A stretch of DNA of 40,546 bases, from positions 1-40,546 of the IMG/VR virus record IMGVR_UViG_3300037258_001220; one strand, given 5' to 3'. Under the pieces are notes generated by a model. The model saw only the letters and a list, made by a program, of their open reading frames with translations. It ran no database searches and was not told the DNA's origin. Each line of letters starts with the position of its first letter. Position 1 is the stretch's first letter. Positions 4,377-39,613 of this stretch are shown piece by piece. The stretch comes from a virus. A program made the position numbers and the translations under genes.

Positions 4377-5855
4377 ATGCCGAAGAAGATAAATAAGCTG
4401 ACGGACGCGCAGAAAGCGCGATTCGACGAGTGGGCTGATAAATGGATTGAGATCGGCTTGCGAGCGGGCGCTGCCGACAGGCCAAAATTTGAAGCCGCCG
4501 TGCAAGAGTGCTACAGGTTTGCCGGACTCGAACCGCCGAAGGTGATTGTGTGGACTACCTCTCCGCTCGCGGTCTCGCTCGCAGGCCCGATCGCTTCACT
4601 GCTTATTGAACTGGCGAAGCGGCCTAGGGCCGCTTCGCGGAAAAATTTGGATGGCGCAGTCCATGACGTGGTCCATGACGCGGTCCGTGGCGCAGTCCAT
4701 GACGTGGTCCATGACGCGGTCCGTGACGCAGTCCGTGGCGCGGTCGGTGACGCGGTCGGTGACGCGGTCGATGGCGCGGTCCATGACGTGGTCGATGACG
4801 CGGTCGATGACGCAGTCCGTGGCGCAGTCCATGACGTGGTCCGTGGCGCAGTCGATGGCGCAGTCCGTGGCGCGGTCCGTGACGCGGTCCGTGGCGCGGT
4901 CGGTGACGCAGTCCATGACGTGGTCCATGACGCGGTCGGTGGCGCAGTCGATGGCGCAGTCGGTGGCGCAGTCGATGGCGCGGTCCATGGCGCGGTCCGT
5001 GACGTGGTCGGTGAGGTTCTGCGCAAAAGCTGGGGGAACATCTTCGGCGGCCAGTTCTGGGTTGGCGGCTGGTGGTGGGGCGCTGCCTTCGCCTCGTTTT
5101 TCCGGGAGGTCTGCGACCTCGAGCTCAAGGGCGATCTCTGGGATCGGAGCAGAGCATATGAAGCGACGGTTGAGTCTGCCTGCTGGTGGTGGCCTCATCG
5201 CGAGTTTGTCATTGTGAGTGAGCGCCCCGTCGCCATTCACCGCGAGCTCTCGGATCCAGCTCGGCCGCGCGGACGCGGATCACACCGGCTGCACTGTGAA
5301 ACGGGAGCAGCCTGCCGGTTTCAGGATGGCTGGGGCATCTGGGCCTGGCATGGTGTGAGAGTTTCGCGCCAGGTCATCGAGCAGCCGGAGACCTTGACCG
5401 TAGCCCAGATCGCCGCAGAGGAAAACGCCGAGGCGCGGCGGGTCATGGTGGAGCGCATGGGGTGGGATCGCTTCTGCGTTGAAGCCAAGATGCAGCTGAT
5501 TCATGTCGACGAGCTGCACTCGCATTTTCCCGACATTCCAGTTTCTGAAAGTGTGGATGCCGGCGCGCGGCTGGTGACAAGTTACCGATGCGGCGTGGAG
5601 CGCGCCGAACTGCTCGAGGCCGCAGACCTGCGCGATTTCGAAGATCGCCCGATGCGCTTTGTTCGCCTGACCGATCCATCGACCGGGCGCCAGTACACGA
5701 TTCGCGTGCTGCACGGCCACACCCGCTGCTATGAGGCAATTGGGTGGACCTTCGGCCTCACCGAAACCGAGTACAAGCGCGGTCGATTTATTCGCCAGGG
5801 CGATGTGTTTCTCAAACCGCTCTCTGGCGGCCCACTCGAGCAGCGGCACAGCTGA
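4377..5855 (+). CDS. DUF6745-type protein with tetrapeptide repeats
   Basis: A 492-residue protein. The start is set by a strong GGGGAGG ribosome site at 4365-4371. Residues 1-90 (MPKKINKLTD..., a helical opening, then WTTSPLAV) and the C-terminal half (TLTVAQIAAEENAEARRVM, then a WDRFC segment and a HVDELHSHF segment) match my memory of DUF6745 proteins, whose function is unknown. Between them, residues about 93-212 are 30 uninterrupted copies of [G/D]-[A/V]-V-x, where x is His, Arg, Gly or Asp. Such a strict four-residue period with Val at position 3 suggests a stacked, solenoid-like or helical rod. The partner at 5914 follows. DUF6745 genes are also found in bacterial chromosomes, so this pair may be cargo rather than core phage machinery. 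Confidence 0.75.
   Translation: MPKKINKLTDAQKARFDEWADKWIEIGLRAGAADRPKFEAAVQECYRFAGLEPPKVIVWTTSPLAVSLAGPIASLLIELAKRPRAASRKNLDGAVHDVVHDAVRGAVHDVVHDAVRDAVRGAVGDAVGDAVDGAVHDVVDDAVDDAVRGAVHDVVRGAVDGAVRGAVRDAVRGAVGDAVHDVVHDAVGGAVDGAVGGAVDGAVHGAVRDVVGEVLRKSWGNIFGGQFWVGGWWWGAAFASFFREVCDLELKGDLWDRSRAYEATVESACWWWPHREFVIVSERPVAIHRELSDPARPRGRGSHRLHCETGAACRFQDGWGIWAWHGVRVSRQVIEQPETLTVAQIAAEENAEARRVMVERMGWDRFCVEAKMQLIHVDELHSHFPDIPVSESVDAGARLVTSYRCGVERAELLEAADLRDFEDRPMRFVRLTDPSTGRQYTIRVLHGHTRCYEAIGWTFGLTETEYKRGRFIRQGDVFLKPLSGGPLEQRHS
4653..5012 (+). repeat. 12-bp tandem repeat, 30 units
   Basis: Exactly 30 in-frame units of 12 bases, each close to GAYGCGGTCSRT, fill 360 bases of the DUF6745-type gene. Units differ mainly at a few positions, so the encoded fourth residue switches between His, Arg, Gly and Asp. 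The period keeps several other frames open, which explains the apparent overlapping frames here on both strands. Such an array should change length easily by slippage or recombination. Confidence 0.92.
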
Positions 5856-7881: not shown

Positions 7882-7947
7882 ATGACAGAGGAAAACGAGC
7901 AGGCCGGGCGCAGGGAGCTTGACGCCGGCCACGGGAGAGCTGCGTGA
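7882..7947 (+). CDS. Possible 21-residue leader peptide
   Basis: A tiny frame (MTEENEQAG...) whose stop overlaps the GTG start of the replication initiator (GTGA). It could couple translation of the initiator. It is too short to be sure. Confidence 0.25.
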   Translation: MTEENEQAGRRELDAGHGRAA

Positions 7948-8690
7948 GCGTGAGCGTGATGAGCGCCGTGTGGGCCTCGTCGCTCGAGGACCTGACGGAA
8001 GTGATGCTGCTGCTGTGCCTGGCCGATCACGCGGATGACGATGGCGGCAACTGCTATCCCGGGCATCGGCGGCTGGCGCGGATGGCGCGGGTGAGCGAGA
8101 AGACGGTGGGGCGGACTTTGAGAAGGCTTGAACAAGACGGCTGGATCGAGATCATGCAGCGGGGCGACGGACGGGGCAACTTTTCGGAGTATCGCGTGAA
8201 CGTGGCCGCGATCCGCGAGAAAAGGTGTCAGGCTGTCCCCCTTTCCGCGGTACGAAAAAGGGGGACAACCAGGAAGAAAAAGGGGGACTTTGGGACCGCA
8301 AAGGGGGACTTTGGCGACACGCCTTTATTTGGAACCACCAAGAACCCTGAAAAGCATCCACCACCCCCACTGCCCCCGCCATTGCGGGGGCCTGTCGATG
8401 CGGCGATCGACGAAGTGTGCGCGGCGCTGGGAGTGAGAAACCGGCGGCGGCGGCGCATGCTGCGAGATGTGATCGAGGGCGAGCTCGAGGGCGGCGCGCA
8501 CCCGGAAGACACGGGGAAGGCGATGATCGCGGCCTGGGAGAACCAGGCGCGGCAGTCTCCCTACCTGCGCAGGAAACTGGGTCTGTCTGAGTTTTTCGGG
8601 GATGGCTACTGGAAAGACGGGAACCGCTGGCACTGGGATGAAGCGGAGCTGCGGCGCCGCGCCGGGGCAAGCATCGGGAGCGCGCGCTGA
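7944..8690 (+). CDS. Phage replication initiator, winged helix-turn-helix
   Basis: A 248-residue protein. Residues 1-95 form a winged-helix domain like phage O-type or RepA-like initiators: a segment reading LLLCLADHADDDGGNCYPG, then RRLARMARVSEKTVGRTLRRLE as the recognition helix and a wing near 70. Residues 100-150 are a low-complexity linker with KKKGDFG / AKGDFGD repeats and a Pro run. Residues 155-248 form a helical C-terminal domain that would load the helicase. The linker DNA carries four evenly spaced AAAGGGGGAC sites, see the origin entry. The order DNA-binding domain, iteron linker, C-terminal domain matches lambda O. No phage helicase gene follows, so the host helicase is probably used. 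Confidence 0.78.
   Translation: MSVSVMSAVWASSLEDLTEVMLLLCLADHADDDGGNCYPGHRRLARMARVSEKTVGRTLRRLEQDGWIEIMQRGDGRGNFSEYRVNVAAIREKRCQAVPLSAVRKRGTTRKKKGDFGTAKGDFGDTPLFGTTKNPEKHPPPPLPPPLRGPVDAAIDEVCAALGVRNRRRRRMLRDVIEGELEGGAHPEDTGKAMIAAWENQARQSPYLRRKLGLSEFFGDGYWKDGNRWHWDEAELRRRAGASIGSAR
8235..8309 (+). repeat. Candidate replication origin: four AAAGGGGGAC iterons
   Basis: Four identical 10-base sites lie at 8235-8244 (inverted, GTCCCCCTTT), 8257-8266, 8279-8288 and 8300-8309. Their starts are 22, 22 and 21 bases apart, two helical turns, so an initiator would bind one DNA face. They lie inside the initiator gene, as lambda iterons lie in O. A short AT-richer stretch (GCCTTTATTTGG) and a perfect 8-bp hairpin follow. 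Confidence 0.6.
8372..8391 (+). other. 8-bp GC hairpin next to iterons
   Basis: Arms GCCCCCGC (8372-8379) and GCGGGGGC (8384-8391) with the loop CATT. It lies in the Pro-coding stretch of the initiator gene, about 60 bases after the last iteron. It could be part of the origin or chance from the Pro/Gly codons. Confidence 0.4.
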
Positions 8691-8905
8691 TGCGGTTCGT
8701 GGTGGTGGCGACGCTGAAGCGTGGGGTGCTGCCGGCGCCGGAGCTGCTGGACATGGCAGGCACGATGCAGGCCTGGGCGGCGTTGATGGTCGAGATGCAG
8801 GCGGAAGGTCGAGCGGCCGCAGTGGTGGCGCGAAAGATCGAGCGGGAAGAGCAGTGGCGCGTGGAGCGGATGATGCGGCTGGCGACGGGGAGGTCGGCGA
8901 GATGA
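8690..8905 (+). CDS. Hypothetical helical protein
   Basis: A 71-residue protein whose ATG shares a base with the initiator stop (TGATG). It is mostly one long amphipathic helix region with many Met, Ala, Glu and Arg. Directly after a replication initiator, it could assist helicase loading in the way lambda P follows O. It is far shorter than P and there is no sequence support, so this is only positional. Confidence 0.5.
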   Translation: MRFVVVATLKRGVLPAPELLDMAGTMQAWAALMVEMQAEGRAAAVVARKIEREEQWRVERMMRLATGRSAR

Positions 8906-8915
8906 GAGGTGAAGA

Positions 8916-9164
8916 ATGCCGCCGAGGCTGAAGATGAGCAACGAAGAGCGCGCTTTGTATACCGCGATCGGAAGAAAGATTACCCGGCTCCGCGTGGGTG
9001 CGGCGGTAAGCCAGCGGGCTCTGGCTGGGTTCTTAGGAATCAGCGCTCCGGCGTTGGCGAAATGGGAGAGCGGCGAAGTGCGTTGTCCGTTGTCTGCGCT
9101 GGTGAGAATGGCGCGACATTTTCGAGTGCGTATCGAGTCGCTGATTCCAGAAAGTTTCACATAA
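8916..9164 (+). CDS. XRE-family transcription regulator
   Basis: An 82-residue Cro/CI-type helix-turn-helix protein. Residues 14-70 hold the five-helix domain. The recognition region is SQRALAGFLGISAPALAKWE (about 31-50), followed by the typical ESG and a PLSALVRMARHF helix. There is no dimerisation or cleavage domain, so it is Cro-sized rather than a LexA-like repressor. It ends 11 bases before an AT-rich promoter zone that starts the next gene group and could control that promoter. Confidence 0.88.
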   Translation: MPPRLKMSNEERALYTAIGRKITRLRVGAAVSQRALAGFLGISAPALAKWESGEVRCPLSALVRMARHFRVRIESLIPESFT

Positions 9165-39526: not shown

Positions 39527-39544
39527 TTTGTAGCTGTATCACAT

Positions 39545-39562
39545 TGTTATACGGTGTTATAC
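39545..39562 (+). promoter_or_regulatory. Tandem TGTTATAC operator-like sites
   Basis: Two TGTTATAC copies start exactly ten bases apart (39545 and 39555) in an AT-rich island between the RHH gene and the integrase. A one-turn spacing suits cooperative binding of RHH dimers. Confidence 0.5.
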
Positions 39563-39613
39563 AAATACAAGATATAAAGAAAGTCAAGGTGCGGGTTTTC
39601 CGGCGGGTTGTCC

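Follow-up and report, generated by a model that had tools for sequence, protein, structure and literature searches.

The stretch of DNA that we analysed, referred to here as the window, is a virus contig of 40,546 bp in which terminase, protease, capsid and tail genes are present. At 7944–8690, on the + strand, lies a gene of 248 codons whose product, judging from profile matches and predicted structure, is an O-like replication initiator. Its N-terminal part is matched by phrog_1032 (5.3e-18), by phrog_391 (1.1e-14), a profile annotated as 'replication initiation O-like', and by HTH_36 (PF13730; 1.2e-10). The predicted structure, with six relatives included, places a winged-helix-like N-terminal part first, then a disordered linker and a helical C-terminal domain, so that the protein has both an N-terminal winged helix that falls on O-like profiles and the wHTH-linker-C-terminal domain order of an O-like initiator. 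The linker (residues 97–138) has a pLDDT below 50 and is bounded on both sides by confidently predicted domains. A fold search with the initiator gave wHTH matches only, all of them weak, and a PDB sequence search with its profile returned only aldehyde oxidase matches that look spurious. Neither a P-like loader nor a DnaB was recognised by PHROGs among the ORFs scanned, and the next ORF (8690–8902) has no PHROG match. Elsewhere in the phage, the left arm encodes a 624-aa ParB-like protein (642–2513; ParB_N 5.9e-16, HTH_ParB 7.3e-09), and 12-nt units (CGTCATGGAC, GACTGCGCCA and related variants) are repeated densely in tandem at 4659–4988, inside a 505-aa ORF with a DUF6745 domain.

Inside the initiator gene, which is read on the + strand across this region, the word AAAGGGGGAC occurs as four exact matches, one inverted (8235–8244, − strand) and three direct (8257–8266, 8279–8288 and 8300–8309, + strand), just as a sequence-only reading of this DNA had reported, and there is no fifth copy anywhere in the contig. 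The same reading placed the sites in the linker between the winged-helix and C-terminal domains; they encode residues 98–122 and are indeed inside the low-confidence segment. AAAGGGGGAC is a 10-bp word without a dyad, and an AAAG...CTTT arrangement is found only at sites 3 and 4. The starts of the sites are 22, 22 and 21 bp apart, that is, several iterons lie about two helical turns apart within an initiator gene, as in a lambda-type origin. The annotated iterons of lambda (J02459), inside gene O, are spaced by 20, 24 and 23 bp, which bears out the earlier suggestion that the locus follows the lambda plan.

The array is followed at 8310–8371 (+ strand) by a candidate unwinding block in which the coding strand is C-rich and G-poor. 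Its GC content is 0.52, with the lowest 30 nt (0.37) at 8324, compared with 0.65 for the whole gene, and its GC skew of −0.44 is at the 0.05th percentile of the 62-nt windows of the phage. The AT-richer stretch described earlier is therefore present on the C-terminal side of the iterons, but it is only moderately AT-rich while being very strand-asymmetric, and it is weaker than the corresponding region of lambda, with 0.31 GC. Across 17 arrays, the 100 bp after the array are AT-richer than the gene (p 3e-5). The block in the window also contains two GAACC units on the + strand, at 8332–8336 and 8342–8346; with only two units, 10 bp apart, this is a weak example of a feature discussed below, and it is the sole GAACC pair spaced by 10–13 bp on either strand of the contig. 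Next comes a hairpin at 8372–8391 (+ strand) with an 8-bp stem and a 4-nt loop, which the sequence-only reading had pointed out and which is real by DNA folding (−11.8 kcal/mol, z −3.6). A similar hairpin follows the array in L157, introduced below, and the sequences of L231 and L232 contain one like it after theirs. We rejected the hairpin as a component of such origins in general, however, since hairpins are not stabler downstream than upstream of arrays in O-like genes (p 0.72). GC skew, proposed as a check on the origin, did not support it and shows no turn or inflection at the site. AT content over 50 nt is highest in the phage at 9144–9200, at the end of an Xre-like gene, and at 39535–39590, both with 26% GC.

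Searches with peptide patterns and tblastn found no close homologues of the initiator in viral contigs and phage records, and in plasmids these direct searches gave short wHTH matches only. The nearest homologue, in L157, was located through a search with the large terminase and inspection of 10-kb flanks. The L157 large terminase is 66% identical to that of the window, and its initiator is 30% identical over the alignment and 26% identical in the tblastn match. L157 contains neither a KGD peptide nor AAAGGGGGAC; four palindromic CTGTCTCAGAGACA-type sites, spaced by 24, 21 and 21 bp, occupy the corresponding position, and these are followed by a block and then a hairpin about 62 bp past the last site, about as in the window. 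Four further relatives were reached from the L157 iteron word. They are 35–56% identical to one another and to L157 (BLAST, protein) and all retain the exact 11-mer GTCTCAGAGAC, although the first copy is read in a different frame in L231, L232 and L233, where it encodes CLRD or RLRD rather than VSET. The sequence-only reading had looked to homologues for a similarly phased repeat with another motif, and L157 provides one, with differently spelled sites in 21–24-bp phase; the contrary pattern, in which KGDFG residues are kept in other codons while the DNA sites are lost, is absent, L157 lacking peptide and word alike. This comparison speaks for selection at the DNA level. It also shows, from the sequences of these lineages, that the position of the array is conserved while its sequence changes.

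A broader survey gave a similar picture. We gathered 32 O-like initiators by profile from Pseudomonadota and Acidobacteriota genomes, blind to repeats, and scored an array wherever at least three exact copies of one 9-mer occurred within 130 bp. Arrays were found in 18 of these initiators, compared with 4 of 131 other ORFs of the same loci, and in 21 of 35 when the window, L157 and L159 were added (Fisher 9e-14); only 22 of 1050 codon shuffles reached the same threshold. The other 14 initiators fall short of this threshold for exact 9-mers. The array words are lineage-specific, the spacing is often 21–24 bp, and several arrays rotate through frames, such as that of L191, where AAATGCGAC advances in 22-bp steps through all three. 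A GGTG or GGGG (a GGKG core) is present on one strand in 13 of the 18 words, as against 13% of the 9-mers of the same genes (p 2e-8). Scored in the same way, arrays also occur in 7/20 Bacillota and 8/11 Actinomycetota initiators.

On reading the blocks, we noticed that in many O-like genes tandem units with a GAACC core, spaced by 10–13 bp, lie just downstream of the array. Counted as [AG]AACC at 10–13-bp spacing, at least two units are present in 20/32 initiators and 3/115 control ORFs, and at least three in 12/32 and 0/115, respectively; these counts are exploratory because the core was picked after viewing these genes, and the sets that follow were examined afterwards. A GAACCRT triple is present in at least 120 viral contigs. 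In 70 of those listed the ORF that contains the triple also encodes a confidently recognised wHTH; the triple is there on the coding strand without exception, 23–121 residues past the wHTH. Many of the remaining listed contigs contain low-complexity repeats or genes cut at the end of the stretch. An array is present as well in 63 of the 70, with 34 different 9-mers. Since 40 of the 70 proteins belong to one 50%-identity cluster, the others being spread over 26 clusters, the 70 amount to nearer 27 independent cases. The chain was also present in all six cultured phages inspected (MD8, LESphi3, phi2, Itty13, PP9W2 and PHB09), which are not independent because all were chosen by similarity to one query; in MD8 and phi2 it accompanies an iteron array. 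GAACC units occur in L157, L205, L206, L209, L215, L404–L409 and others, and the chain occurs in 4/11 Actinomycetota initiators; it was found in none of the 20 Bacillota initiators, and lambda has no GAACC units. Phages and prophages of Pseudomonadota, Acidobacteriota and Actinomycetota are represented among the carriers, and the iterons next to the units are of many kinds. A scan of 249 Pseudomonadota genomes for the strict triple gave 5 matches, of which a single tandem repeat accounts for 3, and the reversed control gave 3; the triple is too rare there for the scan to be informative. A search of open paper texts with the GAACC unit sequences gave nothing on origins among the matches listed. 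The counts in these genes show that many O-like genes have, past the array, a second type of repeat built on a common core.

Repeats within a coding sequence may reflect the protein rather than the DNA, and this possibility has to be weighed for both repeat types. The array could be a KGDFG peptide repeat in a flexible linker, maintained by protein-level selection or produced by slippage, and two neighbouring copies do encode KGDFG in nearly identical codons. The 'KGDFG repeat' that the sequence-only reading took to be the coding effect holds for these two, sites 3 (KKGD) and 4 (AKGD), but not for site 2, which encodes KRGT, or the inverted site 1, which encodes VPLS, and because of these other residues the argument for DNA is stronger than that reading had made it. 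The frame offsets of sites 1–4 are 0 (inverted), 1, 2 and 2, and in 100,000 synonymous recodings of the linker, drawn from the phage's own codon usage, the maximum was two sites and none had three. Between the homologues L136 and L153, which are 62% identical, the one DNA word is in opposite orientations, encoding VVPL and KGD, respectively, as if the sites had been flipped in nature. Of the 20 genes of a separate set that was picked for carrying AAAGGGGGAC-type sites, 15 have them in two or more frames or orientations. The earlier preference for DNA-level selection is upheld by the mixed frames and orientations, by the recodings and by the L157 array without the peptide; judged from sequence, what is conserved in the sites is the DNA and not the peptide, and a peptide repeat, already largely refuted, is very improbable. 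For the GAACC units alone, a conserved peptide (EP or TVNEPSLNH) in place of a DNA signal is somewhat easier to entertain, though still unlikely. In some genes (L190, L199 and L221) all units are in a single frame and encode EPxxEP, and a pair survives in 20% of synonymous shuffles. Against this, the units occupy two or three frames in 60 of the 70 listed viral initiators, the 62% and 37% of initiators with at least two and at least three units exceed the 20% and 4% of codon shuffles that have them, and the reversed core CCAAG was found in 0/32.

Selected DNA sites could serve a purpose other than replication. Plasmid iteron-binding initiators often repress their own genes, and the sequence, which contains selected repeats resembling binding sites, says nothing of their use; the initiator or another phage regulator could bind here for autoregulation only, with replication starting elsewhere. 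The array is, however, in the middle of the gene and not at a promoter, and the asymmetric, AT-richer block that comes after it matches the layout of the lambda origin, which has been characterised; we give autoregulation alone only a small chance. Least credible of all is that AAAGGGGGAC is a dispersed, mobile REP-like repeat that chanced into the gene. Pairs of AAAGGGGGAC are frequent in some bacterial genomes among the matches listed, notably in one Symploca assembly, where they are spread over many contigs (L020–L133) in the manner of a dispersed repeat; the listed genome-contig pair matches include many dispersed repeats and were used for single cases only. The phage, by contrast, holds only four copies, the AAAGGGGGAC pairs in viral contigs are mostly in wHTH genes and after the wHTH (9/11, by inspection), and different words are found at the same place in other initiators. 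The word was present in 11 viral contigs, compared with four for the reversed motif CAGGGGGAAA.

Several known systems resemble the locus in part. In lambda, the four iterons to which O binds are within gene O, and O opens the AT-rich DNA beside them (PMC7466680, PMC5043065). The two have in common four iterons 20–24 bp apart in the initiator gene, located between the regions for its N- and C-terminal parts, and a strand-asymmetric stretch of higher AT content after them. They differ in that the lambda iterons are imperfect inverted repeats of 18–19 bp, each bound by an O dimer, whereas those of the window are a 10-bp word without a dyad, the first copy being inverted; that the lambda block is purine-rich, 31% GC and without GAACC, whereas that of the window is C-rich and 52% GC; and that lambda has gene P adjacent, whereas no P-like gene was recognised in the window. 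The O-like gene of Pseudomonas phage MD8 has internal repeats that its authors read as a lambda-type origin (PMC8508860), which is a published precedent for the reading made here; the text consulted mentions the O-gene repeats and not the GAACC units. In MD8 too a GAACC chain comes directly after the array, but the iteron word is ACCCCCGCA, in six copies by our count, there are four GAACC units, and a P-like gene is adjacent. The lytic origin of phage P1 is thought to be inside the initiator gene repL, where replication suffers when an AT-rich stretch is changed synonymously (PMC9948254); the origin is likewise within the initiator gene, although the initiator is of another kind. In the oriV/TrfA system of plasmid RK2, the unwinding element contains short tandem repeats, one strand of which is bound by the winged-helix Rep initiator, and the iterons that this protein recognises are double-stranded (PMC4081077). 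The two-part arrangement is similar, but the plasmid Rep carries a pair of winged-helix domains and its unwinding repeats are 13-mers, while the GAACC units, which would be bound as a single strand, are within coding sequence.

Considering the array, the block and the gene together, the segment 8235–8391 is very probably a phage replication origin within the coding sequence of its initiator, in the style of lambda. We file it as working like a lambda-type intragenic origin and do not count it among lambda origins proper, because the GC skew does not point to it, a P-like gene was not recognised and the iteron has no inverted repeat; lambda origins proper have an imperfect inverted repeat as iteron and an adjacent gene for a P-like loader. 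In the mechanism that we propose, the winged-helix domain would bind the iterons, four 10-bp sites at intervals of two helical turns, and the resulting complex, as in lambda, would strain the DNA and open the adjoining strand-asymmetric, AT-richer block. One strand would then be captured in the block, in many relatives at the tandem GAACC units, by analogy with the RK2 13-mers, and this capture would lead to helicase loading. The GAACC units may thus be a signal for strand capture or for a loader.

It is possible, and in our view only slightly short of an even prospect, that O-like origins in general are built in two parts: a fast-changing, lineage-specific iteron address, and a conserved module of GAACC-core units 10–13 bp apart that acts single-stranded during opening. 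This module would be common to phages and prophages of at least the Pseudomonadota, Acidobacteriota and Actinomycetota, though not to lambda, and the double-strand specificity of the initiator would diversify while its single-strand or loader contact stayed fixed. If functional, the GAACC module would be a common strand-opening signal beside rapidly diverging initiator sites. Pairs of initiators and binding words would allow the recognition code to be learned, and origins in uncultured phages and prophages could be found without knowing the iteron, by locating the wHTH initiator gene and inspecting its linker.

Two further sets of repeats were seen. In L007, L012, L045 and L066, AAAGGGGGAC repeats are present late in the proteins and encode KGDNLS or KGDISS; these proteins resemble alphaproteobacterial plasmid RepC initiators. 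In L305, L306 and L350, a GAACC triple is on the non-coding strand of other ORFs, giving peptides such as NGSKMVPKRFQNGS, and these are possibly another initiator family with the complementary word.
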